A stretch of 64,000 bases of DNA. Source: Lysobacterales bacterium. GTDB taxonomy: Bacteria > Pseudomonadota > Gammaproteobacteria > Xanthomonadales > Marinicellaceae. Below are positions 10,274 to 64,000 of this stretch, piece by piece (position 1 is the stretch's first letter; each line of letters begins with the position of its first letter). Position numbers and translations under genes: made by a program. The notes below the pieces were generated by a model. It searched no databases, was not told where the DNA came from, and was given only the letters and a program-made list of their open reading frames with translations. The stretch covers positions 1-64,000 of the forward strand of contig JALSLV010000120.1 in the NCBI GenBank assembly GCA_026988115.1, in the 5' to 3' direction.

Positions 10274-11332
10274 ATGCCCATGAAATCGCAACTGACATTC
10301 GAACAAAAATACCAACTCTTAGGGCAAAAGAACAGCCATTACGACGGCAGTTTTTTTACCGCGGTGAAAACCACAGGCATTTTTTGCCATCCCTCCTGCC
10401 GTGCCCGCACCCCAAAGGCGAACAATGTTATCTTTTACGATGATGTACAAACTTGTTTAGAAAATGGTTACCGTCCTTGCAAAATTTGCAAACCATTAGA
10501 ACAAATAGGGCAGGTGCCAGATTACGTAAAAACTATCATGGCGCAATTGCAGAAAAACCCCCAAGACAAAATCAGTGATGACGATTTAAAACAACAAGGC
10601 ATAGAACCGCACACCATCAGGCGCTGGTACAAAAAAAATCACGGCATAACCTTTCATGCCTTCCAACGCATGTTCCGCATCAACTACGCCTTCAACCACA
10701 TCAAAAAAGGCAAAAGCATCACCACCTCTGCCTTTGACAGTGGTTATGACTCTTTGAGCGGATTTAACCAATCATTTCAAACAGTTTTTGGTCAAAGTGC
10801 CAATAAAAGCAAGAATAAAAATGTTGTTAATGTTGTTCGAATTGCCTCGCCCATTGGCGCGTTGATTGCCTGTGCATCAGAAAAAGGCATCTGTTTTTTA
10901 GGCTTTGTTGGACAAAAGCATTTGCAACGAAATTTTGCCTTGATTCAAAAACATTTCAAAGCCGTCATCCTACCAACACCCAATCGACATCTGAAAGTTC
11001 TGGAAAAAGAACTCAAACACTACTTTGCTGGTAAACGCCAAACCTTTGAAGTGCCCCTAGACATTATCGGCACCGAATTCCAACAAAAAGTCTGGCAAGC
11101 CTTAATGAAAATCCCCTACGGACAAACCTCAACCTACAAACAACAAGCCCTTTCAATGGACAAACTCAAAGCCATCCGCGCCGTCGCTACCGCCAACGGT
11201 GCCAATAAAATCAGCATCATTATTCCGTGCCATCGTATTATCGGCACCGATGGCTCGTTGACGGGTTATGCAGGAGGGTTGCATCGCAAGAGGTGGTTGT
11301 TGGATTTTGAGGGTGGGGGATTGGGTGGTTAA
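10274..11332 (+). CDS. ada: Bifunctional DNA repair methyltransferase/regulator Ada
   Basis: Ada removes methyl groups from alkylated DNA onto its own cysteines and, once methylated at the N-terminal site, activates the adaptive response. Starting at the ATG at 10274 gives 352 residues. Zinc-binding Cys38, Cys42, Cys69 and Cys72 (FCHPSCRAR, RPCKICK) then fall at the same positions as in E. coli Ada. An AraC-type helix-turn-helix follows (about 105-175), then the O6-methylguanine methyltransferase domain with IIIPCHRIIG (acceptor Cys319). The C-terminus (GGGLGG) ends in a stop codon whose TAA is the first three bases of the attC-like element at 11330-11459. This suggests the original gene end was altered by insertion. 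Confidence 0.94.
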   Translation: MPMKSQLTFEQKYQLLGQKNSHYDGSFFTAVKTTGIFCHPSCRARTPKANNVIFYDDVQTCLENGYRPCKICKPLEQIGQVPDYVKTIMAQLQKNPQDKISDDDLKQQGIEPHTIRRWYKKNHGITFHAFQRMFRINYAFNHIKKGKSITTSAFDSGYDSLSGFNQSFQTVFGQSANKSKNKNVVNVVRIASPIGALIACASEKGICFLGFVGQKHLQRNFALIQKHFKAVILPTPNRHLKVLEKELKHYFAGKRQTFEVPLDIIGTEFQQKVWQALMKIPYGQTSTYKQQALSMDKLKAIRAVATANGANKISIIIPCHRIIGTDGSLTGYAGGLHRKRWLLDFEGGGLGG

Positions 11333-11459
11333 CGTCTCGGCTATGGTTAGTTGCGACAATTTAGCACTTAACTTCCTAAGTACAAAACCAAGTTGGAAAA
11401 ATCGGAGATTTTTCCAAAGTAGCACAGAACTAAGCAATTAAGTATAGCCATTGTTGGCA
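11330..11459 (-). repeat. attC-like structured element A (about 130 bp)
   Basis: The element forms a long imperfect hairpin. Outer arms GGCTAT (11339-11344) and ATAGCC (11444-11449) pair. Inside them TTAGTTGC pairs with GCAATTAA, and a central 11-bp hairpin TTGGAAAAATC/GATTTTTCCAA occupies 11393-11417. Ends read TAACG... and ...TGTTGGCA. The copy at 63059-63187 has the same order of parts, with different but still complementary outer arms and central hairpin. It follows the HNH-like gene's stop codon by 10 bp, in the orientation expected of a gene-cassette recombination site. Integron attC identity is an inference. Confidence 0.6.
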
Positions 11460-11469
11460 AGTCGTTTTT

Positions 11470-12159
11470 TTACCAGACTATTTCACATGCAAGGTAATTC
11501 CAAATTAATATTCGAACCTTTACACTTCCGATTGTAGGCGTAACTGAATATTGATAAATTCCGTTTTGAACAACAATCCAATTGTCAATCGGTATTTCCT
11601 CTGGAGTAATATACATATTCTGCATTGCTCGACTTCCAATTTCAGGTGTTTTCTGTAATTCCGTTGTCACAAAGAATGAGTTTAATTCCTCTTCGGTCAA
11701 TGTTTCGATTGGTACAAAACCTAAATGCTTTGGCTTTTCATATTTTCTATCGCTATTTTCATATTTTACGTGTCCATATGCTAATTTTAAAATGACATTC
11801 TCAATTCTTTCTGGTTCAATTTTAAAATAGGTTTCTCCATTTTCATTAATAAATGAGTTATCTAAACGAGCCTTTAATTTCTTTTTTCGTTTCAAGATTT
11901 TTATAATACTTTCTCTTGATAGTTTGTCCAAATCCGTTGTTCCTGAAATCAGGCACTCAATCATACAAGCAAAGTATTCCTCGTCTAATGAAAATCCGCT
12001 ATTACATTCCAAGCAACTTGGTACTACAGGAATATTTTCAGGAAAAGGTTTTTCAAGAAGGATTTTAGAAGGAACGTGGTCTCTTGTGTCAGGTAGTTTT
12101 CCGCAATAAGCACATTGAGTGTCTAATCTACTATCGCTAAATGTTTTTATTTGCCTCAA
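11470..12159 (-). CDS. HNH-endonuclease-like zinc-ribbon protein, cassette gene
   Basis: This 229-residue protein is not clearly assigned to a named family. The N-terminus holds C16-x2-C19, then D27-H28, then C49-x2-C52-N53 (CAYCGKLPDTRDHVPSK ... CLECNSGFS). This is the layout of a degenerate HNH/zinc-finger nuclease with two CxxC zinc knuckles. The rest (60-229) has no motif I recognise. The frame begins at a TTG (12159) just after an in-frame stop, so TTG or a downstream codon is the start. It is a single gene between an attC-like element at its 3' end and the repeat array at its 5' side, with neighbours of unrelated function. This fits a mobile cassette. Confidence 0.65.
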   Translation of the reverse strand: MRQIKTFSDSRLDTQCAYCGKLPDTRDHVPSKILLEKPFPENIPVVPSCLECNSGFSLDEEYFACMIECLISGTTDLDKLSRESIIKILKRKKKLKARLDNSFINENGETYFKIEPERIENVILKLAYGHVKYENSDRKYEKPKHLGFVPIETLTEEELNSFFVTTELQKTPEIGSRAMQNMYITPEEIPIDNWIVVQNGIYQYSVTPTIGSVKVRILIWNYLACEIVW

Positions 12160-12426
12160 TTTTCAATTCGATTTCTGGGTTTTCTTAAATGCTTGCTAAC
12201 ATTGTAATATACACACAACTGCATATAGCACGGATTATAAACTGTCTATATTACGAAGAATGACTCCGTAATGATTATTTTTTTCCGCTTGAAATATGAA
12301 AGAGCGTCTAAAATAAATTCTAGCGGATTGATTTATTGTAGCTTATGGGTGGTTTTGGGGCAATGGGTTTTTTATCTGTTTTTTGTGCGAGTTTTTGGTT
12401 TTTTTTGAAATTACGGTTGCTTTAAG
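12160..12426. other. Gene-free accessory DNA upstream of the HNH-like gene
   Basis: No gene is visible here. At 12197-12222 the plus strand starts TAACATTG and contains CAACTGC, loosely resembling the TAACG...GTTGC end of the attC-like elements. It may be a decayed half-site at the other border of the HNH cassette, but the match is weak. The rest is AT-rich and unstructured. Confidence 0.3.
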
Positions 12427-12460
12427 AGGTTGCCGCGTCGCTTATGCTCCTCGCAATGAC
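12427..12460. repeat. Right-arm fragment of the 107-bp palindromic element
   Basis: This 34-bp piece (GAGGTTGCCGCGTCGCTTAT...GCAATGAC) matches the right arm of the four complete elements at 12546, 12738, 13214 and 13690. Its left arm is missing. It marks the start of the tandem array: the first 192-bp unit runs from the base after it. Confidence 0.85.
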
Positions 12461-12844
12461 ATTTTAGTTTTTGATTTGTTTTATTCTATATTCAATTTGT
12501 GGGTTTTGCGATGAGTCTGCTACTTTAAAGTTTAAAAAGAATCAGGTCATTGCGAGGAGGGACGACGTGGCAATCTCATCAAGCTGTGGTATTTTTTGAA
12601 TTAGGGTTTAACGTTAGAAGATTGCCACGTCGCTAATGCTCCTCGCAATGACATTTTGGTTTTTGATTTGTTTTATTCTATATTCAATTTGTGGGTTTTG
12701 CGATGAGTCTGCTACTTTAAAGTTTAAAAAGAATCAGGTCATTGCGAGGAGGGACGACGTGGCAATCTCATCAAGCTGTGGTATTTTTTGAATTAGGGTT
12801 TAACGTTAGAAGATTACCACGTCGCTTATGCTCCTCGCAATGAC
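12461..12844. repeat. Two tandem 192-bp units, each ending in a 107-bp palindrome
   Basis: Units 12461-12652 and 12653-12844 are nearly identical with an exact 192-bp period. Each holds an 85-bp AT-rich spacer followed by a 107-bp element (12546-12652 and 12738-12844). The element has a left arm GTCATTGCGAGGAGGGACGA and a right arm ending GCTCCTCGCAATGAC, which pair over most of their length. The loop contains GGTATTTTTTGAATTAGGG. No protein is encoded. Confidence 0.9.
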
Positions 12845-12897
12845 GGTGTGTTTTTTGAAAATATGTTATACTTATCTCAGTTTTTAAGGATAATGAC

Positions 12898-13185
12898 ATG
12901 AAAAATGGATACGTTTATATCATCACCAATCAAAATAATACAGTTCTTTACACTGGGGTTACGAGTGATTTAATTTCGCGTATAGCACAACATAAAAATA
13001 AATTAATTAAAGGTTTTTCATCGCGATACAATTGTAATAAATTAGTTTATTATGAGATTGGCAGTGGAATGGAAGGCTGTATTTTAAGGGAGAAACAAAT
13101 TAAAGCAGGCTCTCGGTTGAAAAAGATTGAGTTGATAGAATCTGTTAATCCAAATTGGAAAGACTTATACCAAGATTTGCTATGA
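12898..13185 (+). CDS. GIY-YIG nuclease family protein, copy 1
   Basis: This 95-residue single-domain GIY-YIG endonuclease of the UvrC-N/YhbQ type has the variant motif Y5-V-Y7 ... Y18-T-G20 and the catalytic-type Arg28 and His32 in ISRIAQHK. The metal-binding Glu65 is in REKQIK, and the family C-terminus NPNWKDL is present. All key residues are intact, so it is probably active. It has its own extended -10 promoter and a good Shine-Dalgarno sequence (AAGGATAATGAC). It differs from copy 2 by only three bases, two of them silent and one giving Ile77 here versus Phe77. Position inside a palindrome array suggests that it acts on or spreads with that repeat. This is an inference. Confidence 0.9.
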   Translation: MKNGYVYIITNQNNTVLYTGVTSDLISRIAQHKNKLIKGFSSRYNCNKLVYYEIGSGMEGCILREKQIKAGSRLKKIELIESVNPNWKDLYQDLL

Positions 13186-13213
13186 CATTAATAGTAAAGT
13201 TCAAAAGAACTTT

Positions 13214-13320
13214 GTCATTGCGAGGAGGGACGACGTGGCAATCTCATTAAGTTGTGGTATTTTTTGAATTAGGGTTTAACGTTAGAAGATTGCCGCGTCG
13301 CTGATGCTCCTCGCAATGAC
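13214..13320. repeat. 107-bp palindromic element, copy 3
   Basis: It has the same length and arms as the copies at 12546 and 12738, with small changes in the loop (TCATTAAGTTG) and right arm (CCGCGTCGCTGATG). It lies between the two GIY-YIG genes and ends 476 bp before the end of copy 4. Confidence 0.9.
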
Positions 13321-13373
13321 GGTGTGTTTTTTGAAAATATGTTATACTTATCTCAGTTTTTAAGGATAATGAC

Positions 13374-13661
13374 ATGAAAAATGGATACGTTTATATCATC
13401 ACCAATCAAAACAATACAGTTCTTTACACTGGGGTTACGAGTGATTTAATTTCGCGTATAGCACAACATAAAAATAAATTAATTAAAGGTTTTTCATCGC
13501 GATACAATTGTAATAAATTAGTTTATTATGAGATTGGTAGTGGAATGGAAGGCTGTATTTTAAGGGAGAAACAAATTAAAGCAGGCTCTCGGTTGAAAAA
13601 GTTTGAGTTGATAGAATCTGTTAATCCAAATTGGAAAGACTTATACCAAGATTTGCTATGA
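13374..13661 (+). CDS. GIY-YIG nuclease family protein, copy 2
   Basis: This 95-residue protein is identical to copy 1 except Ile77 is Phe. The GIY-YIG motif residues (Tyr5, Tyr7, Tyr18, Gly20, Arg28, His32, Glu65) are all kept. Two silent changes (AAT to AAC, GGC to GGT) separate the genes. Retention of an intact frame in both copies suggests either a very recent duplication or selection on the protein. Confidence 0.9.
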   Translation: MKNGYVYIITNQNNTVLYTGVTSDLISRIAQHKNKLIKGFSSRYNCNKLVYYEIGSGMEGCILREKQIKAGSRLKKFELIESVNPNWKDLYQDLL

Positions 13662-13689
13662 CATTAATAGTAAAATTAAAAAGAACTTT

Positions 13690-13796
13690 GTCATTGCGAG
13701 GAGGGACGACGTGGCAATCTCATCAAGCTGTGGTATTTTTTGAATTAGGGTTTAATGTTAGAAGATTGCCGCGTCGCTTATGCTCCTCGCAATGAC
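13690..13796. repeat. 107-bp palindromic element, copy 4
   Basis: This is the last palindrome of the array, with the same arms as copies 1-3 and a loop containing TTTAATGTTAGAAG. Immediately after it the repeated sequence stops, so the array boundary coincides with the palindrome end. Confidence 0.9.
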
Positions 13797-14162
13797 GGTG
13801 TTTTTTTGCATCTTCTTTGTGCTCTGTGCGTTACGCTTTAAGAATCTCCGTGTATCTCTGTGATTGCTCCGTGAATCTCTGTGTTCCTTAGCAGATTTAA
13901 AAGAAACGATGCGGTCGGTGGATTTGATATTTTTTGGTTTAGTTTACTATTTTTTTTAATTAATTTGAATAATTCCTCTTGTTCTACCGTTAGTGTATTG
14001 AAGTGCTGATATTCACTCTCTATTTTTGTTAAGTTAAATCTGACAAAGTGATTTTCCCCAATTTCAGCACTTCACTGCTAAATAAAATCAACTCGTTTTT
14101 GTTGGTTTTATTTTTACACTATTAATAAGCAAATTAATTTTTGCTTAAATGAGGAAATTATA
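13797..14162. other. Gene-free region with CTCTGTG-rich repeat and an inverted repeat
   Basis: No gene is visible. About 13805-13890 is a degenerate direct repeat built on CTCTGTG/CTCCGTG, the complement type of the CACAGAG repeat at about 63021-63050. A 10-bp inverted repeat, GAAGTGCTGA (14000-14009) and TCAGCACTTC (14064-14073), lies in the leader or promoter region of the downstream secreted protein gene. It could be an operator pair or RNA structure. Confidence 0.45.
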
Positions 14163-16631
14163 ATGATTTTTAATGTGAAGAAAAAAGGTTTGGTGCTGGC
14201 TATAAGTTTGTCTCTGGCAAGTTTGTCATCGTTTGCATCCCACTCAAGTTTAACGGATTTTGATGAGGTTTCAAATTATGCAAAAAAATCCATTGCGGAT
14301 TTGGAATTGTCGGGCGTTATTGCAGCAGGTAGTGCATTTGAGCCTGCCAATCAAGCGGATAAAGTTTTTGCTAAACAAATTTTAGGGACTTTAGATGATA
14401 TTGGTTCGGGTTACCTAACTTATGGTGAGGCGGTTTATTTGGCTGACAAATACCGGGCTTCTGCTGGGTTTAATGATGTGGTTTCTGTGGAAGGTTTGCT
14501 GACTAAAAAAGGCTACCGTGTTAATGATATTATTTCGCGCCAAGATTTTGCTTATTTGGTGGCTCATGCCAAACAAGAAGATATTACCATTAATGGCACG
14601 CCAATTCATAATCCAGCGATTGCAACGCCAGGACCATTGCTTGGGCCGACCGTTTTCCAATCGGGTACTAACGATGAGGGTGCAGTTTTTGATGGCAGTA
14701 CTATTTCTTTGTTTCACCGAGCAAAACAAGCCAAAAATTTAACTTTCGCAGAAAATGGAGTCTATACTTTGCAGGTTCACCCTGAGGTGTTTAAGTCGGT
14801 TTCAGTTGGTGGCATTAATGTTGAAGATTTAGATGACATGACTGCTCAATTAGAGGTTGAATTGGCTGATGGTACGATTCATCGCACTTCTCTTAATTCA
14901 TTAATTCAGTTCAGTATTCATGGAGCTGATGGCAAAGTCGGTCAGATTCGGGTGGAAGATGGTGTACTGGCTTTAGTGGATGACCTAAAAGGCTATGTAC
15001 CAAGTTTTAAACTTAATGGGCATGAATTTACCAGTGAAGCTGTTGCCAACCGTGTTTTGACGCAAAAATATATCAATGGCGATCAAACTGATGCGCAAGT
15101 TGTCGATGCTGTGATTAATGAGTTAACCAGTGTTGGTTTTTCTTTGCAAGACAGAAGAACCATGTTGCATAATTTAATCCTAACAAAAACTGCCATTCAG
15201 CAATCAGGCTTGTCGCCTTTGAGCGCGCCTTTTAATACCATTGCAGGTCCCAGTAGCAGAGGACGTGGTTTTAGGCAAGGTTATTTGTATGGCATGTATG
15301 ATTTGGCTGAACAGTTAAAAGATTATGCAGATATTGGAAATACTGCCGCCATGCGTGAAATGTTAAACACACAATCGGTGCAACAACAATTACTGGATAG
15401 CACGAAAATACTCACTGCAGCCACTTTATTGCCTCATATTACTAAGCTGGCAGATGCACCTTTTTTACCTAACGAAGCTTTGACTTCTCGGGTAAAAAAA
15501 GCTGGTGCTTTGTTACCAAGTGAGCCGATTGTTTTTCAATACGACCGTTTAAAACGTGCGGCTTATATCATTCTTGATGATGCCCTGACTCAGGGTAATG
15601 CTTCGAATTTGGTGACCACGGGTTCTATTACTTCTATTGAAACTTCTGACAAATCTGCCTTTGAGTTAATTGCTGAAAATTTTGATGCGGTGAATCTGTC
15701 GGTTAAAGAGAGTGTCTTAACTGATGCGATTTATGACTATATTGATGCTTATGAGCAAATTATTCAGATGGTTTCTGGAGTTGCTTTTGAAGGTTCTTTG
15801 ATGAATCAATCCGAAGAGCAACTAACTGCTATTAATACAGCCTTTTCTCGACCTATTTTAGATGATGATATGTCGCGCATTAAGATTGGTGATTTAGAAT
15901 TTAAGATGGATATATTGGCAACACCTTCGCATGTTTCCGATAGCTTCAAACCTGCCAATGCCAAAACAGCCATTCGCTCGAGTGAAGTCTTTGGTCTGGA
16001 TCAAGCCATGGAACCATTTCCTGCGCGTCTTGCACAGTATGTTTGTGCTGGTGAAGTCGTTACCCCAGCAGGTGAATTTATTGCCGAGGCTAAACTTGAT
16101 GCCTTAGAACAATTGGATTTAATTCAAGATTTTTCAGTCACTCCAAATCAAAGTTGTCAAGAAGCGGTTGCCTCAACTCCACGTTATCATCAGTTATTGT
16201 TTGTGGATAATTTTCAATTGCCACCTTTTGGGCCGCAAGCCAAATTTATCACAGCTCAAGGCATTGAGATTATTAATCGAGTGTTGTTAACGCCAGTGGA
16301 TGAAAATCTAGCGATTCAAGACATTCGATTGAGCTATCGAATAAACGCACCGATTGAGAATAGCGCACCTGTGGCTCAAGCTTCAGTGCCCCAATCTGCT
16401 CGAGCATTTAGGTTTGGCTTTTTAATTGCGGATAAATCAAGTGATGCGGACAATGATGTTTTACACTATAAATGGAGTGTTAATTCGGGTCACGCTATAG
16501 TATTTCAGTCAGAATACATTCCTTATGCCTTATATTTGCCTTTATCCAATGAGCCTTTAACTGTGTCATTACAAGTTAATGATGGAGTGGCAAATAGTCA
16601 AATAGTTGAGAAAACAATTAATATCCGTTAA
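14163..16631 (+). CDS. Large secreted protein of unknown function
   Basis: I do not recognise a family. The 822-residue product begins with a signal peptide (VKKKGLVLAISLSLASLSSFAS, split here as about residues 5-26). Residues ~35-135 are alpha-helical and contain DLELSGVIAAG and 'AYLVAHAKQED', resembling an S-layer-homology-like or helical repeat region. The C-terminal ~90 residues (SSDADNDVLHYKWSVNSG ... VSLQVNDGVANSQIVEK) look like a PKD/cadherin-like beta-sandwich with a calcium-type DADND loop. A GAGGAAA Shine-Dalgarno sequence precedes the ATG and a strong hairpin follows the stop, so the gene is its own unit. Export to the periplasm or outside is likely. Confidence 0.75.
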   Translation: MIFNVKKKGLVLAISLSLASLSSFASHSSLTDFDEVSNYAKKSIADLELSGVIAAGSAFEPANQADKVFAKQILGTLDDIGSGYLTYGEAVYLADKYRASAGFNDVVSVEGLLTKKGYRVNDIISRQDFAYLVAHAKQEDITINGTPIHNPAIATPGPLLGPTVFQSGTNDEGAVFDGSTISLFHRAKQAKNLTFAENGVYTLQVHPEVFKSVSVGGINVEDLDDMTAQLEVELADGTIHRTSLNSLIQFSIHGADGKVGQIRVEDGVLALVDDLKGYVPSFKLNGHEFTSEAVANRVLTQKYINGDQTDAQVVDAVINELTSVGFSLQDRRTMLHNLILTKTAIQQSGLSPLSAPFNTIAGPSSRGRGFRQGYLYGMYDLAEQLKDYADIGNTAAMREMLNTQSVQQQLLDSTKILTAATLLPHITKLADAPFLPNEALTSRVKKAGALLPSEPIVFQYDRLKRAAYIILDDALTQGNASNLVTTGSITSIETSDKSAFELIAENFDAVNLSVKESVLTDAIYDYIDAYEQIIQMVSGVAFEGSLMNQSEEQLTAINTAFSRPILDDDMSRIKIGDLEFKMDILATPSHVSDSFKPANAKTAIRSSEVFGLDQAMEPFPARLAQYVCAGEVVTPAGEFIAEAKLDALEQLDLIQDFSVTPNQSCQEAVASTPRYHQLLFVDNFQLPPFGPQAKFITAQGIEIINRVLLTPVDENLAIQDIRLSYRINAPIENSAPVAQASVPQSARAFRFGFLIADKSSDADNDVLHYKWSVNSGHAIVFQSEYIPYALYLPLSNEPLTVSLQVNDGVANSQIVEKTINIR

Positions 16632-16645
16632 TCACTTACCTCGTT

Positions 16646-16679
16646 GTAATAAGAAAGGTAAACTTACCTTTCTTATTAC
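16646..16679 (+). terminator. Perfect 16-bp hairpin terminator
   Basis: GTAATAAGAAAGGTAA (16646-16661) and TTACCTTTCTTATTAC (16664-16679) form a perfect 16-bp stem with a 2-nt gap, followed by a T-rich tract (TCTTTCTTT). It lies 15 bp after the secreted protein stop and ends 28 bp before the ECF sigma gene. Confidence 0.8.
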
Positions 16680-16707
16680 TCTTTCTTTAATGCACTGTAG
16701 TAAAATT

Positions 16708-17229
16708 ATGTTTGTAAAAAGAGAAGATATACTAACTTATATGCCTGATTTAAAGAGGTATGCCAATTATTTGTGTCAAAATTCCGATGATGCAGAAGAT
16801 TTGGTGCAAAATACTTTTGAGAAATCATGGGTGAAATTTAATCGTTTTACGCGCTCAGTAAATCTTAAGTCGTGGTTGTTAAAAGTCATGTATAACAGTT
16901 TTATTGATGGCATACGGAGTAAAAAGTTTGGTGAAGATAATCACCAAGCCTATATTGATTCGTATATCGCGCAAGAACATGAAATCAATCATTTAATGGA
17001 TTTAGATAAAGCCATTAAGATGTTAGAACCTGAATTGAAATCTGTTTTAGTGTTGGCAACAATTGAAGGTTATGACTACAAAACCATAGCCAAAACCATG
17101 TCGATACCAACAGGAACCGTTATGTCAAGATTGCATCGCTCTAGAAGTCTATTGCGGCAGATTCTTGAAGTGAGTAAAAAAAAGCCTAAGCAGACAAATA
17201 TTGTGGAGATGAAACATGAGCAAAAATAA
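16708..17229 (+). CDS. ECF-type RNA polymerase sigma factor
   Basis: This 173-residue group IV sigma factor has region 2 spanning about residues 10-75 (RYANYLCQNSDDAEDLVQNT, FEKSW), giving -10 recognition. Region 4 is near 110-160 with the helix-turn-helix GYDYKTIAKTMSIPTGTVMS then RLHRSRSLLRQ. The start is the ATG at 16708 (MFVKREDILTYMPDL); the open frame upstream runs through the terminator hairpin and is discarded. It overlaps the anti-sigma gene by 14 bp, so the pair is translationally coupled. Confidence 0.92.
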   Translation: MFVKREDILTYMPDLKRYANYLCQNSDDAEDLVQNTFEKSWVKFNRFTRSVNLKSWLLKVMYNSFIDGIRSKKFGEDNHQAYIDSYIAQEHEINHLMDLDKAIKMLEPELKSVLVLATIEGYDYKTIAKTMSIPTGTVMSRLHRSRSLLRQILEVSKKKPKQTNIVEMKHEQK

Positions 17230-21206: not shown

Positions 21207-24200
21207 ATGAAAAAATTACTGTTTTTGTTATTTTTAAATTCGCAACTGATTTTTGCAGCACCCAGTGATGATTTTGTCTTTAAAATTCAAACCGATAATC
21301 CGGGCTCGTCCAATTCATTGAACTTTTATTTTAGTTTTTTGGAACCGGGCAGTGAGTACCTGAGTGATTATTCGGTAGATTGTGAAGACGATGGAATTAT
21401 TGATTATACCATAACCTTACACGGCACATTTAACCTTACCTGTAGCTATCCAGTGCATGGTACTTATACCATTCGCATTATAGATAACCGTGCCAACCAC
21501 AGAGGGTATGGTTATTTTCATGTATTTGCTGCTAATAAACCGGACATGGAAGATATTGTGCAATGGGGGACGCACAAGTGGACATATATGGCAAATGTCT
21601 TTGAGGACTGCACCAATATGAAGGTGACTGCCACCGATGTGCCTGATTTTTCGCTATTGAGCTCGCTTAATTCGATGTTTAGAAACGCCGATAAAGCCAA
21701 TCCTGATACGACTAATTGGGATGTTTCAACCATAACGAATTTTGGATATATGTTTAGTGACACTTTTAGTGCAAATCCCAATACGAGCAATTGGGATACC
21801 AGTAGTGCAACAAATATGAGACATATGTTCGAAAACACCACACAAGCCAATCCAGATGTCAGTAACTGGAACATGGCGAATGTACATAATACTGCATTCA
21901 TGTTTCGAAATGCCATCAGTGCCAACCCGGATGTCAGCAGTTGGGATACATCGAGTTTAGATTTTCTGCCCCATATGTTTGATTTGGCATTGAGTGCCAA
22001 TCCAGACGTCAGTGCTTGGGATACCGCAAATTTTTCCAATATTGACTACCTGTTTCGCAATGCGTTAAGTGCCAACCCAGATGTCAGTGGCTGGGATACT
22101 TCTGGAATTGACAGCTTTGAAGGTGTGTTTCAAGGTGCAGCCAATGCAACTCCTGATGTCAGCCAGTGGAATACCGATTTGGTCAACAATATGGCGTATA
22201 TGTTTGATGGAGCAATCAGGGCAAACCCTAATATGATGCAGTGGAATTTTTCTAATATTAGTAGTTGTGTTGGCTGTTTGGTACCCAATGCCATGCAAGG
22301 CATTTTCAATGGCGTAAAGTTACCCACAGCCTCTTATGATAATTTGCTTATCCAATTAAATACCCAAAATAGCAATACCGATATAGAATTTGATGCAGGC
22401 AACTCCAATTATTGTTCCCCAGCAGCCGGTGGCGCTCGATTAAATTTGTTTACCAATAAAAATTGGACGATAAGCGATGCAGGACAAGATTGTTCCAGCA
22501 GTCTTGATGCGCTCATTATGGTGGTTAAAACCGACAATCCTGGAAGCAGCAACAACACCCAATTTACCATCCCAACTTATTCATCAGGTATCAATATTGG
22601 TTACAATTATGCTGTGGATTGCGATAATGATGGCAATTATGAAGTTTTAGGCGCATCCACCAGTTACACCTGTCAATATGCCAGTGCTGGCACTTACGAA
22701 GTACGCATTGTCGATACCGCAGGTGATTTAACAGGTTTTCCACGGATTTATTTTAACAATTCAGGAGACCGATTAAAACTGCTGGATGTCAAGCAATGGG
22801 GGAGATTCAAATGGACCAGCATGGTGAAAGCCTTTTTTGGTACTGAGAATGCTGTTTTCACGGCTCAAGACACGCCTGATTTTAGTCAGGTCGCTTCTTT
22901 TAGTAATATGTTTAGAGAAGCCCATCTTGCCAATCCCTATACCAAAAACTGGGATGTATCAAACGCCGTCAATATGCATTGGATGTTTTACCGTGCCTAC
23001 AACGCCACGCCTGATACCAGTAACTGGGATACTTCGCAGGTGAGCTTGTTTGATGGCATGTTTTATGAAGCCTTTAGTGCCAACCCCGATACGTCCACAT
23101 GGCAAACAGCCAATGCCACAGACATGGGTTTTATGTTTTATAATGCCATCAGTGCCAATCCTGATACATCTACTTGGGATATTACCCAAGTCACCAATAT
23201 GGCAAATATGTTTAAGTTTGTCACTTTGCCTTTAGCCAATTACGATGCTATGCTCTCGGGTTTTGCTTCCCAAGCCGTGAACAACAATATCAATTTCCAT
23301 GGTGGATTTTCTCAGTATTGTAATGCGAATCCAGATAGAGCCGCTTTAATAGCGAATAACAGCTGGACCATTTTCGATGGCGGACAAGAGTGTACTCCAG
23401 TCGTACCGCCGTATCCCGTTCAAACAACTTCCCCTGCTGATAATACTCCTAATATTAAAGTTACTTGTGCAGACGTTGACAACATCATTAAAATCTATGC
23501 CTCCGATACAGGGGGTGGTGGAGCAACTTATAATAATACAGTAATAGCAAACTATACTTGTGCCAGTGCAGGTGTGCAATACTTTGATGCACCAGTGGTA
23601 TTGGATGGGGATTTTCAAATGACTGCCACGCAAACTAGATATGGAGATGAATCGGCTCATTCCACTTCCAATCCATTGCTGATTGATACCGTCACCAATG
23701 CACCAACATCAATAATTGTCAATCCGCTTTATGCGACCAATGGCACAGATGTCTATATTAACTTGACTGGTTTAGAAGCCAATGATGTCAATGTGTCCAT
23801 TGTTGGGGCAACTTGTCAGGCACTGGTTCTTCCGCCTTTTGGAAGATTTAAATGCGTGGGAACAGTTGGAGTCAATGGCTTTGATAACAGTGATACCACA
23901 ATCACAGTGACAGATAGTTATGGCAATGTGAATAATGATGCCCATTATACCTTGATTATTGACAACACACCGCCTGCCGACCCGACATCAATCACCACCA
24001 CACCAATGGTTGCCGCCAATGGCACAACCGTGACGACGGTATTGGAAGGTGTGGAGTTAGATGCCACGGTTCAAATTCCAGGGATGACTTGTTCACCAAC
24101 ACCTGCAGATGCAACGGGAACCGTGACATGCACGGGAGTCGTGGGTCAAAATGGCTTGGATGGTGTGGATACGATGATTCGTATATTCGACTTGGCGTTT

Positions 24201-24278
24201 AATGGCAATTTGAATAACTTCACTGGTTTGGTTGTGACGCAAACAGAGGAGATATTTAGCAACGGTTTTGAAAACTAA
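21207..24278 (+). CDS. BspA-type (DUF285) repeat surface protein 1
   Basis: This 1023-residue exported protein has a signal peptide (KKLLFLLFLNSQLIFA) and two modules. Each begins with an Ig-like part (DDFVFKIQTDNPGSSN; the second has VDCDNDGNYE), then QWG-x-KWTSM, then 25-residue BspA repeats of the form MFx5(S)ANPDTSxWxTSx, and ends with an 'YCxxxxxRxxL...WTIxDGGQxC' block. I count 8 repeats in module 1 and 4 in module 2. Residues ~770-1010 hold bacterial Ig-like domains. The extreme C-terminus is EEIFSNGFEN, the short motif shared with other exported proteins here. DUF285 proteins in other bacteria bind host or surface ligands; the ligand here is unknown. Confidence 0.88.
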   Translation: MKKLLFLLFLNSQLIFAAPSDDFVFKIQTDNPGSSNSLNFYFSFLEPGSEYLSDYSVDCEDDGIIDYTITLHGTFNLTCSYPVHGTYTIRIIDNRANHRGYGYFHVFAANKPDMEDIVQWGTHKWTYMANVFEDCTNMKVTATDVPDFSLLSSLNSMFRNADKANPDTTNWDVSTITNFGYMFSDTFSANPNTSNWDTSSATNMRHMFENTTQANPDVSNWNMANVHNTAFMFRNAISANPDVSSWDTSSLDFLPHMFDLALSANPDVSAWDTANFSNIDYLFRNALSANPDVSGWDTSGIDSFEGVFQGAANATPDVSQWNTDLVNNMAYMFDGAIRANPNMMQWNFSNISSCVGCLVPNAMQGIFNGVKLPTASYDNLLIQLNTQNSNTDIEFDAGNSNYCSPAAGGARLNLFTNKNWTISDAGQDCSSSLDALIMVVKTDNPGSSNNTQFTIPTYSSGINIGYNYAVDCDNDGNYEVLGASTSYTCQYASAGTYEVRIVDTAGDLTGFPRIYFNNSGDRLKLLDVKQWGRFKWTSMVKAFFGTENAVFTAQDTPDFSQVASFSNMFREAHLANPYTKNWDVSNAVNMHWMFYRAYNATPDTSNWDTSQVSLFDGMFYEAFSANPDTSTWQTANATDMGFMFYNAISANPDTSTWDITQVTNMANMFKFVTLPLANYDAMLSGFASQAVNNNINFHGGFSQYCNANPDRAALIANNSWTIFDGGQECTPVVPPYPVQTTSPADNTPNIKVTCADVDNIIKIYASDTGGGGATYNNTVIANYTCASAGVQYFDAPVVLDGDFQMTATQTRYGDESAHSTSNPLLIDTVTNAPTSIIVNPLYATNGTDVYINLTGLEANDVNVSIVGATCQALVLPPFGRFKCVGTVGVNGFDNSDTTITVTDSYGNVNNDAHYTLIIDNTPPADPTSITTTPMVAANGTTVTTVLEGVELDATVQIPGMTCSPTPADATGTVTCTGVVGQNGLDGVDTMIRIFDLAFNGNLNNFTGLVVTQTEEIFSNGFEN

Positions 24279-24298
24279 CACACCATACAGGAAATAAG

Positions 24299-26554
24299 AT
24301 GATTAAAAAAATATTAATTTACACGATATTCCTAACGCAAATAAGCTTGGCAGCTCCTAGTGATGATTTTGTTATCGAAGTGGATACAACTATTGTGGGT
24401 TCTACCACTAATCTACAATTTAAAATTAAAACATTAGGATTCGGAGTTGTATACAATTACAACGTCGATTGCGATGCTGTCAATGCAGGCACAAACACCG
24501 CAACTGCCCAAACAGGTGACTATACCTGTAATTATACAACAGCAGGGATTTATACCATCCGTATTTCGGATAATATTGGGGATAAAACAGGGTTTCCTCA
24601 CATTTATAATTTTGCAAACAATGATGCTAAAAAAATAACCGACCTTAAACAATGGGGAACAGGTATTTGGAGTTCTATGGAAAATGCTTTTAGAGGAGCA
24701 GAAAATATGGTGGTTACGGCTACCGATAGTCCTGATTTATCAAATGTAACAAATATGAGTAATATGTTTGCAAATGCAACCTCTGCCAATCCAAATACCA
24801 GTACTTGGAATACAAGCAGTGTAACAGATATGAGTTTTATGTTTTCAAGTGCAACCGATGCTAATCCAAATGTCAGTAGTTGGAATACAAGTAGTGTAAC
24901 AAATATGTTTGGTATGTTTGTGAGTGCAACTTCTGCCAATCCAAATGTCAGCCTGTGGAATACAAGCAGTGTAACAAATATGAGGTTTATGTTTAATGGT
25001 GCAATCGCAGCAACTCCAGATATGAGCGCTTGGGATATTACAGGACTTACTGTTCCAAATTCAATGGATAGTATGCTGCAAGGCATCACCCTACCAACCG
25101 CCTTATACGATGCCACATTGGCTAATTTTAATTCGCAAATCACAGCCAGTGGCATTGTCTTTGGTGTTGGTAACTCAAAATACTGCAATGTCGCAGCGCG
25201 AGATAGTTTGATTAATACCCATGGCTGGACTATTACTGATGGTGGTTTGGATGCAAACTGCCCAGGTCCTTTGGATGATTTAGTTATCGAAGTGGATACC
25301 ACTATAGCGGGTTCAACCACTAATTTACAATTTAATATTAAGACAAATGCTTTTTTGACTTACAACTACAACGTCGATTGCGATGCAGTCAATGCAGGTA
25401 CAAACACCGCCACAGCCCAAACAGGTGACTATACCTGTAATTATACAACAGCAGGGATTTATACCATCCGCATTTCGGATAATGTTGGGGATAAAACTGG
25501 TTTCCCACATTTTTATTCTTTATTAAATGAGGATGCTAAAAAAATAATTGACCTTAAACAATGGGGAACAAGTATTTGGAAGAGCATGTATTACGCTTTT
25601 TACAATGCTTCTAATATGATTGTATCTGCGGTTGATAATCCTGATTTATCTCAAACTTTAGATTTATCTTCGATGTTTAGATCTGCAACAAAAGCGGATC
25701 CAAACACTAGTTTCTGGAATACATCTAATATAACTAAAATGCCAAGCATGTTTAAGGACACAACCTTAGCCAACCCCGATACCAGTACTTGGAATACCAG
25801 CAGTGTAACAGATATGAGCCATATGTTTAGTGGTGCAACTTCTGCCAATCCAAATACCAGTACTTGGAATACCAGCAGTGTAACAGATATGAGTTTTATG
25901 TTTAAAGCTGCAACTTCTGCTAACCCCGATACCAGTGTTTGGAATACAAGCAATGTAACAAATATGAAGTCTATGTTTAATGGCGCAACCTCAGCCAATC
26001 CTGATGTGAGTAATTGGGTTATTACAAGCATTAGTGGAAGCGTATTAAGTAATATGACAAATATGTTTTTGGGGGTTACTTTACCAACAGCCAGTTACGA
26101 TGCCATGCTTGCTCACTTTAACTCTCAACTGGTTCAATCAGGCATAACATTTCATGGTGGTAACTCAAAATACTGCAATGTCGCAGCACGTGATAGTTTG
26201 ATTAATACCCATGGCTGGACTATTACCGATGGTGGTTTGGATGCCAATTGCAGCGATGTTATTTTTGAAAACAGTTTTGAAAATACCGTGGTTTTCAAAG
26301 CAGCAGACAAGCAATTTGTCTATGATTTTTCACAAGTCTCATCTTTAGAGTTGGATGACAATCCACTGTTGATTGCAACAGGAGTCGATTCGCAAAACAA
26401 TACGGTGGTAAAAATTTACCTAAGAAAAGACCTCGGCCAATTACAGATTCGCATGGACAGGCTTATGGGCAAAGAATCCGAAACAAATCAATGGCAAATA
26501 GGAAACTGGCAAAACACTGACAAAAAAAACCTAACAGTGATTCAATGGCAATAG
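24299..26554 (+). CDS. BspA-type (DUF285) repeat surface protein 2
   Basis: This 751-residue paralogue of the preceding gene starts 20 bp after its stop with a Shine-Dalgarno sequence (CAGGAAATAAG). A signal peptide (IKKILIYTIFLTQISLA) is followed by two modules of Ig-like part plus 25-residue repeats, about 4 and 5 repeats, with very regular SANPNTSTWNTSSVTDMSFM units. The last module ends at ~660 with WTITDGGLDANC. The motif VIFENSFEN follows, but unlike its siblings the protein continues for about 85 residues with a beta-rich tail. That tail may have been added by fusion or may be a domain the others lost. The near-identical modules suggest internal duplication. Confidence 0.87.
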   Translation: MIKKILIYTIFLTQISLAAPSDDFVIEVDTTIVGSTTNLQFKIKTLGFGVVYNYNVDCDAVNAGTNTATAQTGDYTCNYTTAGIYTIRISDNIGDKTGFPHIYNFANNDAKKITDLKQWGTGIWSSMENAFRGAENMVVTATDSPDLSNVTNMSNMFANATSANPNTSTWNTSSVTDMSFMFSSATDANPNVSSWNTSSVTNMFGMFVSATSANPNVSLWNTSSVTNMRFMFNGAIAATPDMSAWDITGLTVPNSMDSMLQGITLPTALYDATLANFNSQITASGIVFGVGNSKYCNVAARDSLINTHGWTITDGGLDANCPGPLDDLVIEVDTTIAGSTTNLQFNIKTNAFLTYNYNVDCDAVNAGTNTATAQTGDYTCNYTTAGIYTIRISDNVGDKTGFPHFYSLLNEDAKKIIDLKQWGTSIWKSMYYAFYNASNMIVSAVDNPDLSQTLDLSSMFRSATKADPNTSFWNTSNITKMPSMFKDTTLANPDTSTWNTSSVTDMSHMFSGATSANPNTSTWNTSSVTDMSFMFKAATSANPDTSVWNTSNVTNMKSMFNGATSANPDVSNWVITSISGSVLSNMTNMFLGVTLPTASYDAMLAHFNSQLVQSGITFHGGNSKYCNVAARDSLINTHGWTITDGGLDANCSDVIFENSFENTVVFKAADKQFVYDFSQVSSLELDDNPLLIATGVDSQNNTVVKIYLRKDLGQLQIRMDRLMGKESETNQWQIGNWQNTDKKNLTVIQWQ

Positions 26555-26578
26555 AATGAGATATTTGATAAGGTAAAA

Positions 26579-29290
26579 ATGATGATTAAAAAAATATTAA
26601 TTTACACGATATTCCTAACGCAATTGGGCGTGTCGGCTCCTAGTGATGATTTTGTCATTCGGGTTAAAACTGATAATCCAGGGTTCACCACTGCTGAAAT
26701 GTTTCGTATTCCAACAAAAAATGCATTGACCTACAATTATAATGTCGATTGCAATGATGATGGCATTGATGAAGTCACTGGGCAAACAGGCGATTATTAT
26801 TGCGACTATTCATTTACTGGCTTAAATTTGGGAGCAGGGACTTACACCATTCGCATCACAGACAATGTGGGTGATGGTACGGGTTTTCCGAGTATAAATT
26901 TCAACAACACTTTTGATCGCTTAAAAATTATCGAAGTGGTGCAATGGGGAACGGGCAAATGGACAAATATGCAACGCAGCTTTTACGGTGCAGAAAATAT
27001 GATTGTTTCTGCAACCGATACGCCTGATTTTTCTCAAGTTACCACCATGGAAAGCATGTTCCGCCGTGCATTTATGGCAAATCCTGATACCAGTATGTGG
27101 GATACTTCGAGTGTAACAAACATGAAAAGCCTGTTTAATGAAGCGCAAGTTGCCACACCCGATACTTCCAATTGGGATACGCACTTGGTAACGGACATGA
27201 GTTTTATGTTTCGCCATGCTTTTTTGGCTCGTCCCATAGTCGGTAGTTGGGATATTTCCAATGTAACTGACATGACTGCCATGTTTAGTGCGGTGAGTTT
27301 GCCTTTTAATACCTATGATAGAATTTTAATTGAGTTTGCCGCTAAGACAGTGCAAATGAATGTGCCATTTAGTGCAGGGACAAGCAATTATTGTTCGCAA
27401 AATGCCCAAAATGCCAGATTGCTTTTACAAAATACCCACAATTGGTCAATTACCGATGGAAATTTATGTGCCTCGCCAGCAATCACCAAAGATTTTGTCT
27501 TTAAGGTTGATACTACCATTCCTGTGATTGCAGGAGGTACATCCAATACAGAATACAAAATTAGAATAAATCCAAGTTATACTTATAATTACAATGTGGA
27601 TTGCAACAATGATGGCAGCGATGAAGGCACTGCTTTAAACTCTGATTTTATTTGTGATTATTCTGCTCTTGGTGGAGCAGGTATTTACACCATCAGAATT
27701 AAAGACAATAATGGTGATAATCGAGGTTTTAGTGGCTTTGGTTTGGTTGGTGCATCTACGGATTATGATCAAAAGAAAATTATTGAGTTGATTCAATGGG
27801 GAACATTTAAATGGCAAACGCTGGAACAAGCATTTCTAAGAGCTTCAAATATGTATGTTACGGCATTAGATATTCCTGACTTTTCCGAAGTGATTAGTAC
27901 CAATAGCATGTTTACTGGAGCCTTTTTTGCCAATCCTACTACTAAGTTTTGGGATACCTCAAATATCGAAGACATGAACTCTATGTTTAAATCCGCACTG
28001 AGTGCAAAACCAGATACCAGTCTGTGGGATACGGCCTTTGTCACCTCAATGGCGTCCATGTTTAGAGGTGCCGTTAGTGCCAATCCCGATACCAGTTCTT
28101 GGGATACATCCAGTGTGCAGAACATGACAGCCATGTTTAGAGGTGCCACTAATGCCAATCCCGATACCAGTTCTTGGAATACCTCCAGTGTAAAAACCAT
28201 GGAATCCATGTTTCGCGGTGCAACAAGTGCCAATCCTGATACCCGCAATTGGGATGTATCTGAAGTGACTACCATGTTGTTTATGTTTAAAGATGTCACA
28301 CTACCAACGGTTAATTACGATGCAATATTGGTTGCTTTTGAGTCCCAAATAGTAAAGAACGGAGTTGATTTTGATGGTGGCAATTCACACTATTGTTCAA
28401 AAGCGGCACAACTGGCTCATGATAAGTTGCAAAGTAATTTTGCTTGGACTATAACTGATTTAGGCTTATGTGCTGCCAGTGACCCGGCAAATGATTTTGT
28501 CATCACGGTAAAAACAGACAACACTGGGTCATCAGCAGATGACCAATTTATGATTTTTGTAAATAATAGTGTCACAAACCATTACAATGTGGATTGCAAC
28601 AATGATGGTGTGAATGAAATATTAGGAGCTACCACCACGCATAATTGCGATTATTCACCTTTTAATTTAAATACAGGGCCTGGTGTTTACACTATTCGCA
28701 TTAAAGATGTTATTGGGGATGGTACGGGGTTGGCTGGGTTTAATTTTTCACCAGATGGCGACAAAATTTTGTCGGTGGAACAATGGGGAACTGCTCAATG
28801 GCAATCGACTTCTTTCATGTTTAGTGATACGTCAAACCTAGTCATTAATGCCATTGATATACCTGATTTTTCACAAGTAATAAATATGTCAGATATGTTT
28901 TTACGCAGTCCATTAGTCAATCCCGATACCCGTCGTTGGGATGTTTCTCAAGTGATTAGTATGAAGGACATGTTTGCATTAGCGATTAATGCCAGACCTA
29001 ATATTGATAGTTGGAATATGTCACAAGTATTATCCATGGAGGAAATGTTTGGATTGGTCAGTTTAGAAAGCAGTTATTATGATCATTTGTTGATACAACT
29101 CGAGGCTAAAAATGTACAACCCAATGTTCTTTTTGGCGGGTCTATTTCCACTTACACTTATTGTTCACAAGCAGCGCAATTGGCTCGCATGAGTTTAATA
29201 AATGATGACTTATGGACTATTGGTGACGGAGGCTTAGATCCAAATTGTCAGCCTCTTCCTGATTTGTTGTTTGCTAATGGCTTTGAATGA
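26579..29290 (+). CDS. BspA-type (DUF285) repeat surface protein 3
   Basis: This third tandem paralogue has 903 residues. Its first ~17 residues (IKKILIYTIFLTQ) are identical to those of protein 2, showing recent duplication. Three modules follow, with about 3, 5 and 2 BspA repeats. Each module is preceded by a calcium-loop-like DCNDDGI/DCNNDGS/DCNNDGV segment and a QWGT-x-(K/Q)W motif. It ends PDLLFANGFE. It begins 24 bp after protein 2 (two possible ATG starts, 26579 or 26582), and a strong terminator follows, so the three genes form one operon. Confidence 0.88.
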   Translation: MMIKKILIYTIFLTQLGVSAPSDDFVIRVKTDNPGFTTAEMFRIPTKNALTYNYNVDCNDDGIDEVTGQTGDYYCDYSFTGLNLGAGTYTIRITDNVGDGTGFPSINFNNTFDRLKIIEVVQWGTGKWTNMQRSFYGAENMIVSATDTPDFSQVTTMESMFRRAFMANPDTSMWDTSSVTNMKSLFNEAQVATPDTSNWDTHLVTDMSFMFRHAFLARPIVGSWDISNVTDMTAMFSAVSLPFNTYDRILIEFAAKTVQMNVPFSAGTSNYCSQNAQNARLLLQNTHNWSITDGNLCASPAITKDFVFKVDTTIPVIAGGTSNTEYKIRINPSYTYNYNVDCNNDGSDEGTALNSDFICDYSALGGAGIYTIRIKDNNGDNRGFSGFGLVGASTDYDQKKIIELIQWGTFKWQTLEQAFLRASNMYVTALDIPDFSEVISTNSMFTGAFFANPTTKFWDTSNIEDMNSMFKSALSAKPDTSLWDTAFVTSMASMFRGAVSANPDTSSWDTSSVQNMTAMFRGATNANPDTSSWNTSSVKTMESMFRGATSANPDTRNWDVSEVTTMLFMFKDVTLPTVNYDAILVAFESQIVKNGVDFDGGNSHYCSKAAQLAHDKLQSNFAWTITDLGLCAASDPANDFVITVKTDNTGSSADDQFMIFVNNSVTNHYNVDCNNDGVNEILGATTTHNCDYSPFNLNTGPGVYTIRIKDVIGDGTGLAGFNFSPDGDKILSVEQWGTAQWQSTSFMFSDTSNLVINAIDIPDFSQVINMSDMFLRSPLVNPDTRRWDVSQVISMKDMFALAINARPNIDSWNMSQVLSMEEMFGLVSLESSYYDHLLIQLEAKNVQPNVLFGGSISTYTYCSQAAQLARMSLINDDLWTIGDGGLDPNCQPLPDLLFANGFE

Positions 29291-59820: not shown

Positions 59821-59837
59821 GTATTAAATTAAGAACG

Positions 59838-59924
59838 GTCATTGCGAGGAGGGACGACGTGGCAATCTTTATGACCTACGTTTACTTTGGGAGATTGCCG
59901 TGTCGCTGCGCTTCTCGCAATGAC
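59838..59924. repeat. Solo copy of the palindromic element (87 bp)
   Basis: Its arms GTCATTGCGAGGAGGGACGA (left) and TTCTCGCAATGAC (right end) match those of the 12.5-13.8 kb array, but the loop is different and shorter (TTATGACCTACG). No GIY-YIG gene is nearby. It is a separate insertion of the same family. Confidence 0.85.
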
Positions 59925-63058: not shown

Positions 63059-63187
63059 TAACGTGTTTGTGTATGATTAGTTGGGTAGTTTAAGCACTAA
63101 AGTTAGTAAATAAATCACAGATAGAAAGTCCGCGAGGACTTTCGTAAATTGGCTAAAACCAGCAATTAATTATACACGGTGTTGGCA
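63059..63187 (-). repeat. attC-like structured element B (about 130 bp)
   Basis: It has the same architecture as element A: TAACG at the outer end, arms GTGTAT (63069-63074)/ATACAC (63172-63177), TTAGTTG pairing with CAATTAA, central hairpin GAAAGTCC (63124-63131)/GGACTTTC (63136-63143), and GTTGGCA at the gene side. The outer arms differ from those of A yet keep their pairing. It begins 5 bp after the stop of the nuclease-like gene on the minus strand. Confidence 0.6.
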
Positions 63188-63192
63188 TTTCG

Positions 63193-64000
63193 TTATTTCT
63201 TTATTTCAATTCGGTTATTTATTCTTCGGTGAATAATTCCATTTTCAATACTTGAATTTTCTTTATCTGTTTTAAATATTCCTTTAAATCTATAAAGTGT
63301 AAATCCTAAATTGTCTTTACTTCTCGGAAATACAATTCGATTTACGCTACTGTTCATTAAACTGTCAAAATGTTCTTTCTGTTTTGATTCAGTTTTGCAT
63401 TTTTCCGTAATAGTCAAACCATCATCAGATATCCAATTATCCCATTTGTCATTGTTGTAAAATTTTGGAAACCAAATGTTATGATTTTCATATACTTTAC
63501 TTTTAACATAAGAACGTTGAGAACCATCTTTGTAATTTTGTCCTAAACAGTTACAAGCGTGAGAAATTGTTTTGAACGCAGGATTTTCCTTCGTGTCTAA
63601 ATATCCTTTTTCTCGATGATATTCAGGGTTAAATTCTTTTCCTAAATCCCAAGGTTCAAAAGTGTTTTCGTCAATATTTTTCGTTCGTAGTGCACTTATT
63701 TCATTAATAATATAATCAATTTGTTTATTAATAAAATTGATATCATCAGTTATTTTAACTCGTTCTATTTTGTGATTTGTAGCCTCAATTATATCTGATT
63801 CTCTGTTTAAATCCAATTCCTTTTGTTTATTGTGGAATGGTTCATCAATTTCAATATGTAAATTAAATTGAGGAAAAAACATATCTGTTAGAGCGTGTCC
63901 ATTTGGTCTATTAACAAATTGTTGTGTTGTGAATTTTACGTCTGTTTTATTTATTCCGTGCCAAATTCGAGTGACAACATAATTTTCAAAATTCTTTTTA
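63193..64000 (-). CDS. PD-(D/E)XK-like nuclease protein, 5' end outside window
   Basis: This frame ends at 63193 and stays open, without a stop, up to the right edge of the window, so only the last ~268 residues are seen. The segment GHALTDMFFPQFNLHIEIDE matches the catalytic pattern D-x(n)-E-x-D of DUF559/Vsr-type PD-(D/E)XK nucleases. It is followed by a helix with a conserved Arg (LDLNRESDII) and ERVKIT. The C-terminal half (KEFNPEYHREKGYLDTKENP and beyond) is not recognised. The ATG at 63882 is inside the conserved domain, so the true start lies further left on the minus strand. It is followed by attC-like element B, like the HNH gene by element A. Confidence 0.65.
   Translation of the reverse strand, partial: KKNFENYVVTRIWHGINKTDVKFTTQQFVNRPNGHALTDMFFPQFNLHIEIDEPFHNKQKELDLNRESDIIEATNHKIERVKITDDINFINKQIDYIINEISALRTKNIDENTFEPWDLGKEFNPEYHREKGYLDTKENPAFKTISHACNCLGQNYKDGSQRSYVKSKVYENHNIWFPKFYNNDKWDNWISDDGLTITEKCKTESKQKEHFDSLMNSSVNRIVFPRSKDNLGFTLYRFKGIFKTDKENSSIENGIIHRRINNRIEIKK

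Follow-up and report, generated by a model that had tools for sequence, protein, structure and literature searches.

Probable attachment sites of an integron-type cassette system with a XerA-like, non-IntI recombinase behind two lone genes of a Lysobacterales genome

Two attC-like elements, A and B, of the 64-kb window (the whole stretch of 64,000 nucleotides of a Lysobacterales genome analysed here) seem to be the attC-type sites of single-gene cassettes, mobilized by an integron-type capture system with a Xer/XerA-like, non-IntI tyrosine recombinase, a reading that is given a probability of about 0.83. This reading is built on features visible in sequence: a distinct attC class and attI-like platforms, junctions that are exact, one orthologous site at which cassettes have been replaced, end complementarity as the imprint of a circle, cassette arrays, and linkage to the recombinase. 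The system works like an integron but lacks defining features of IntI integrons.

Element B occupies positions 63059–63187 on the minus strand, with R'' at 63181–63187 and the GTT of R' at 63060–63062, and starts 5 bp past the stop codon of a minus-strand gene, while element A (11330–11459, minus strand) has the same plan and starts 10 bp past the stop of its own gene. On the minus (gene) strand, B reads TGCCAAC-ACC-GTGTATAATTAATTG...CAACTAATCATACAC-AAACAC-GTTATCC, that is, TGCCAAC, 3 nt, a 15-nt arm, a strong inner hairpin, the second arm, 6 nt, and GTTATCC. Both the spacings to the gene stops and the preservation of all structural parts in B had been claimed in an earlier note on this DNA, and the sequence confirms them. 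An independent check used a covariance model, R2. Its 12 training sites came from Bacteroidia genomes and one Flagellimonas plasmid and included neither A nor B nor anything else from the window's genus, and at E ≤ 10 it matches the window only twice, at B (93 bits, E 1.5e-18) and at A (78 bits, E 3.7e-15); a second covariance model, R1, also recovers B. Chance is excluded because R2, built independently of A and B, still finds both. Moreover, B is 88.5% identical to one Bacteroidia site over 122 bp. The Rfam search gave no identity for the elements and matched only three tRNAs. The simple motif TAACG-N(85-115)-GTTGGC had fewer matches genome-wide than its reversed control, so that motif counts alone are worthless and covariance models were therefore used. 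A hand-made stem scanner did pick up array-type sites and was too noisy for genome-wide scans, with a chance rate of about 0.07 per kb per strand vs. a real one of 0.17.

The anatomy of the class was described from 95 distinct sites. Their stem is 97.5% paired and shows a covariation score of 0.588, compared with 0.131 for shuffled and at most 0.10 for slid controls, which carry the weight here since the site alignment was fitted to structure. Two T.G wobble pairs are conserved (in 73/95 and 93/95 sites), appearing as A.C mismatches on the other strand, and the bottom strand is the more stable fold in 82/95 sites, vs. 44/95 random pieces. One spacer is 3 nt long in 93/95 sites and the other is mostly 5–6 nt. 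The two extrahelical bases of canonical attC sites are not seen, stem insertion columns being filled in at most 6/95 sites; likewise, the full canonical boxes RYYYAAC/GTTRRRY occur in only 10 of 90 sites, with the AAC/GTT core kept. In the canonical arrays of relatives, whose sites look canonical by eye, a covariance model scan found no site of the A/B class. An origin of this class from canonical attC sites is rejected on anatomy and on the covariance model, and the cassette reading of the earlier note needs the correction that the elements are not canonical integron sites: both the attC anatomy and the associated recombinase differ.

Cassette B is about 1.0 kb long (63062–64073) and ends with element B; its visible part spans 63062–64000 on the minus strand, and its predicted G^TT junctions, placed by own-start complementarity and the platform boundary, are at 63062/63061 and, beyond the window, at 64074/64073. 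Its cargo gene (63193–64000, minus strand, with an ORF running on to about 64044 beyond the window) encodes a PvuRts1I-like modification-dependent restriction enzyme, in which profile searches detect, both over cut-off, the N-terminal PvuRts1I-like nuclease domain (PF21598, 1.4e-29) and the C-terminal SRA domain (PF18491, 1.7e-36) of the PvuRts1I type, and which PADLOC assigns to methyl-directed REases (mREase_II, 5.7e-89). The GC content of this gene is 28%, vs. 38–43% in two neighbouring host genes, and this low GC, together with the Bacteroidia-like site B, points to the arrival of the cassette from a low-GC donor. Behind the close PvuRts1I homologues L040–L045, no clear element was seen downstream by eye; the genome of L041 contains seven attC-like sites elsewhere. 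Cassette A (11333–12199, minus strand, about 867 bp) is delimited by BLAST breakpoints against the relative G004 at window positions 11345 and 12197, and its cargo gene (11470–12159, minus strand, 229 aa) matches no profile in profile searches or PADLOC and shows an HNH-like pattern, CxxC...DHVPS...CxxCN, by eye only. Of the nuclease-like character proposed earlier for both genes, that of gene B is supported, and that of gene A goes no further than this pattern. Elsewhere in the Lysobacterales genome, the cargo includes a Sau3AI restriction-modification (R-M) system on contig C64, a PD-Lambda-5 A/B pair (C120 at 75 kb), and unidentified proteins; the relatives G004 and G003 carry an NgoFVII-like R-M system, a methyltransferase, and a type I R-like gene, and other cargo, recognized by profile or by eye, comprises AraC, PLD, serine hydrolase, monooxygenase, CPBP, NUDIX-like, and further genes. 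Defence is prominent in the cargo, not exclusive, and the defence genes would confer an anti-phage phenotype.

The earlier note took the mobile unit to be gene plus element, which are replaced together at locus A, and missed a second essential part past the 5' end of the gene, namely an attI-like platform with a predicted inward promoter. The DNA past the 5' ends of genes A and B is about 78% identical between the two loci and has seven matching places in the genome. This platform, of about 180 bp, has a sharp start, AAC[AG]T[CT]GTA, followed by an inverted repeat, CGTAATATAC...GCATATACYACG, a third arm-like repeat, and, at its end, TTGCCC-N17-TACAAT directed toward the cassette. In platform A, the attI-like site (12198–12262, minus strand) comprises the inverted-repeat core and the third arm-like repeat and is common to the recombinase-linked sites in C64, G003, G009, G010, and G019, in an alignment read without the row of contig C66. 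The predicted promoter (12335–12363, minus strand) points into the cassette, as Pc does in integrons, is consensus-like as far as its sequence goes, and recurs as an exact match in most full platforms. The platforms on contigs C15 and C66, with no convincing attC-like site in the flank examined, look empty. Matches to the right half of the platform only proved to be the promoter motif and were discarded; in the genus (L161, L162, L160, L166), TTGCCC-N17-TACAAT and conserved sequence around it (GTAGCTTATTGGTGGTTTTTGGGCAATGGG, other strand) are also seen ahead of ordinary genes. Other repeats of the window are an interspersed repeat, GGTCATTGCGAGGAGGGACGACGTGGCAATCT, and, next to cassette B, CCACAGAGGACACAGAG repeats (12422–13823 and 59837–59868), and four consecutive large genes of 75-bp (25-residue) repeats at 21207–29290, which probably encode surface proteins with DUF285/BspA-like repeats, as judged by eye.

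Locus A offers the comparison proposed in the earlier note, namely that gene and element should be present or absent as one unit in close relatives. The left flank is kept in relatives, and what follows the end of the Ada gene (GGTGGTTAAC) differs: in the Lysobacterales genome, attC A and the 229-aa gene; in G004, a short attC, scanned at 61 nt, together with genes for an NgoFVII-like endonuclease and a C5 methyltransferase; and in G003, a different sequence that includes a type I R-subunit-like gene. In G004, an unrelated R-M cassette of 2.26 kb takes the place of cassette A while both flanks stay the same, and homology restarts exactly at the AAC of the platform (window position 12197) with 91–92% identity, so that the platform is also kept in this one relative. 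Three genomes hold three cargos, with the junctions between AAC and G, and gene and element are exchanged as one unit. The proposed comparison is thus borne out at locus A in a stronger form, with different units at one site and one platform. At locus B, no clean empty site was found in relatives, the flank not being conserved beyond xdhA.

A further trace of mobility lies in the cassette ends. The first bases of cassette B (GTTGGCATT) are complementary to its R'' (AATGCCAAC) at 6/6 positions beyond the core, and among seven cassettes of the genus this own-start complementarity beyond AAC/GTT is 6/6 in B, C64, G010:C119, and three G004 cassettes and 5/6 in A. The 3' flank that now adjoins the site is complementary at only 1–2/6 positions in five of the seven, and in the remaining two it reads as another cassette start. 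In the arrays of other genomes, own-start/R'' matches amount to 79 positions, vs. an average of 41.5 and a highest value of 66 among 20,000 permutations. The first bases would complement R'' because both made one palindrome in the circular form, and this complementarity is best understood as the imprint of a circular intermediate. The locus-A replacement, the own-start pairing, and the wide occurrence described below bear out the view that the elements belong to a mobile cassette class and are not chance repeats.

On contig C64, an attI-like site lies directly upstream of a gene for a 280-aa Xer/XerA-like tyrosine recombinase. Beyond the site, on the side away from the recombinase, come a divergent control gene, a C5 methyltransferase, a Sau3AI-family endonuclease, and then an attC site; the promoter part of this platform is not the same as in the others. 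The recombinase is 81–99% identical in five relatives (G003, G004, G009, G010, and G019), and where the recombinase-linked site is complete in relatives, the sequence right beyond its AAC is different each time. A cassette array adjoining an integrase gene with an attI site is present on C64, G009:C4, and G010:C119 and in Bacteroidia arrays, with a recombinase other than IntI; this recombinase is divergent from the array in the window's genus and co-directional in Bacteroidia. In the alignment, its catalytic residues R, K, HxxR, H, and Y are kept, and the IntI-specific insertion (alpha-I2 region, KYPxAxxxW), present in the IntI rows, is absent from all aligned recombinases of the C64 family. 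The protein scores 199 bits against TIGR02249, under the cut-off of 265, and 228.9 bits against NF040815 (XerA/integron-integrase-type), over the curated cut-off of 220. In a tree whose root is arbitrary, the family of the genus (100/100) has Bacteroidota recombinases around it, and XerC/D and IntI branch elsewhere. Its matches on viral contigs have 27–32% identity, except for one partial segment at 52%, and an attC covariance model scan of seven of those loci found no site. The insertion helix of IntI contacts an extrahelical base of attC (PMC3053210), and the insertion has been described as essential (PMC8138268); the missing insertion and the missing extrahelical bases may fit together.

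When the genus, family, and order were scanned with R1, 7/11 genomes of the genus had sites, as did two further genomes of the family and 0/28 from other families in the order. The attC class is present in 120/295 Bacteroidia species (41%) and the recombinase in 145/295 (E ≤ 1e-50), whereas, of 369 genomes sampled from the class to which the window belongs, only the window's own genome had the recombinase (E ≤ 1e-60). In the 295 Bacteroidia, both co-occur (86/34/59/116, odds ratio 5, Fisher p 2e-10, a statistic that ignores kinship), although 34/120 attC-carrying genomes have no recombinase at E ≤ 1e-50 and many attC copies are far from any listed recombinase. Fifteen recombinases have a listed attC within 20 kb, vs. 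1.4 expected when kinship is likewise ignored, and all 15/15 recombinase-near arrays lie downstream of the recombinase and are co-directional with it. The complete arrangement is seen on the Chryseobacterium plasmid NZ_CP041688.1, which carries the recombinase at 16032–17075 (minus strand) and, between annotated genes, six sites that share one orientation, of which four lie 7–13 bp behind a stop codon. Group IIC introns are known at canonical attC sites, and a group II intron reverse transcriptase gene near an attC-like site of this Chryseobacterium array (L208:8379-10311) is reminiscent of them. On a Flagellimonas plasmid (L149:1895-2571), an attC of the A/B class ends a dihydrofolate-reductase-family gene, beside erm(F) and a C64-family recombinase. 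In a survey with IntI and canonical attC models, only In0 elements were at first found in Bacteroidetes proper, and later one complete integron (PMC9024848).

The Lysobacterales genome also holds an intact canonical IntI at a contig end (C15:22087-23034) and a broken second copy (C81:18442-19409), and these could in principle have put ordinary integron cassettes at secondary, attG-like genomic sites, as the AAC/GTT cores and the scattered single cassettes are compatible with the attC x attG route known from integrons. Nevertheless, this explanation is unlikely, since the attC class lacks extrahelical bases and the RYYYAAC consensus and has other spacers, the canonical arrays of relatives give no match, the insertions use a conserved site of about 180 bp that also flanks the Xer-like recombinase, and Bacteroidia arrays are headed by that same type of recombinase.

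Even less probable is a two-ended, non-autonomous transposon with cargo, with the element as its left end and the platform as its right end. Both ends are indeed common to A and B, and helper-type recombinases exist in the genome, but one platform carries unrelated cargos at one orthologous locus, the platform is found without the element, and in multi-cassette arrays a site follows each gene. Chance hairpins or transcription terminators behind unrelated genes, which the similarity of the inner hairpins to terminator stems might suggest, are scarcely credible against the E-values of the covariance models, the covariation, and the coincidence of junctions with replaced DNA.

In the integron-type system proposed here, the circular cassette would consist of a gene and one attC, whose bottom strand folds so that R''/R' and the outer stem form the recombination site. 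The C64-family recombinase, presumably acting in trans at A and B, would catalyze the joining of the cassette at the G^TT of the attI-like platform, whose promoter would drive transcription of the cargo, which here consists mainly of restriction and other anti-phage genes. One site serves repeatedly, cassettes being exchanged or strung into arrays, and the system may have been acquired from Bacteroidota. A broader view is favoured with some reserve, namely that this is a second integron lineage with XerA-like recombinases, whose attC sites are read by wobble pairs and not extrahelical bases, that is common in Bacteroidota, a group that to our knowledge is thought nearly free of integrons, and that delivers anti-phage and other accessory cassettes across phyla. 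If active, it would represent a large pool of mobile cassettes so far uncounted, given the 41% of Bacteroidia species with the attC class, including in the genus restriction-modification, PD-Lambda-5, and PvuRts1I-like genes, and it raises the question of how folded DNA is recombined without the IntI insertion and extrahelical bases. No description of such a system was found in the open-access literature, preprints and subscription papers being outside this scope, and priority is uncertain.

As in IntI integrons, there is a recombinase, a primary site, and an array of cassettes that lack promoters of their own and end in a folded site each, with a G^TT crossover, a predicted inward promoter, a bias toward bottom-strand folding, and a circular intermediate, here deduced. 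However, the recombinase is XerA-like and lacks the IntI insertion, the sites are marked by two conserved T.G wobble pairs rather than by extrahelical bases and RYYYAAC, recombinase-less platforms are dispersed over the chromosome, and the Bacteroidia arrays are 3' of the recombinase. Lone chromosomal cassettes away from the integrase are also seen with IntI-mediated attG insertion, whereas every target here is a copy of a single conserved attI-like site that has a predicted promoter. The xerD-like/TnpF recombinase beside tet(X3) in Acinetobacter belongs to the same clade and is 48% identical to that of C64, but it is N-terminally truncated by comparison and adjoins ISVsa3 (ISCR2-type); the one 5.1-kb plasmid scanned by covariance model had no attC of the A/B class. 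Finally, pdif modules (XerCD dif sites) share a Xer-type recombinase and small mobile gene modules with this system. Their pdif sites are short double-strand dif sites on both sides of the module, whereas here each cassette has one folded site of about 128 nt and the recombinase family is distinct from XerC/D.
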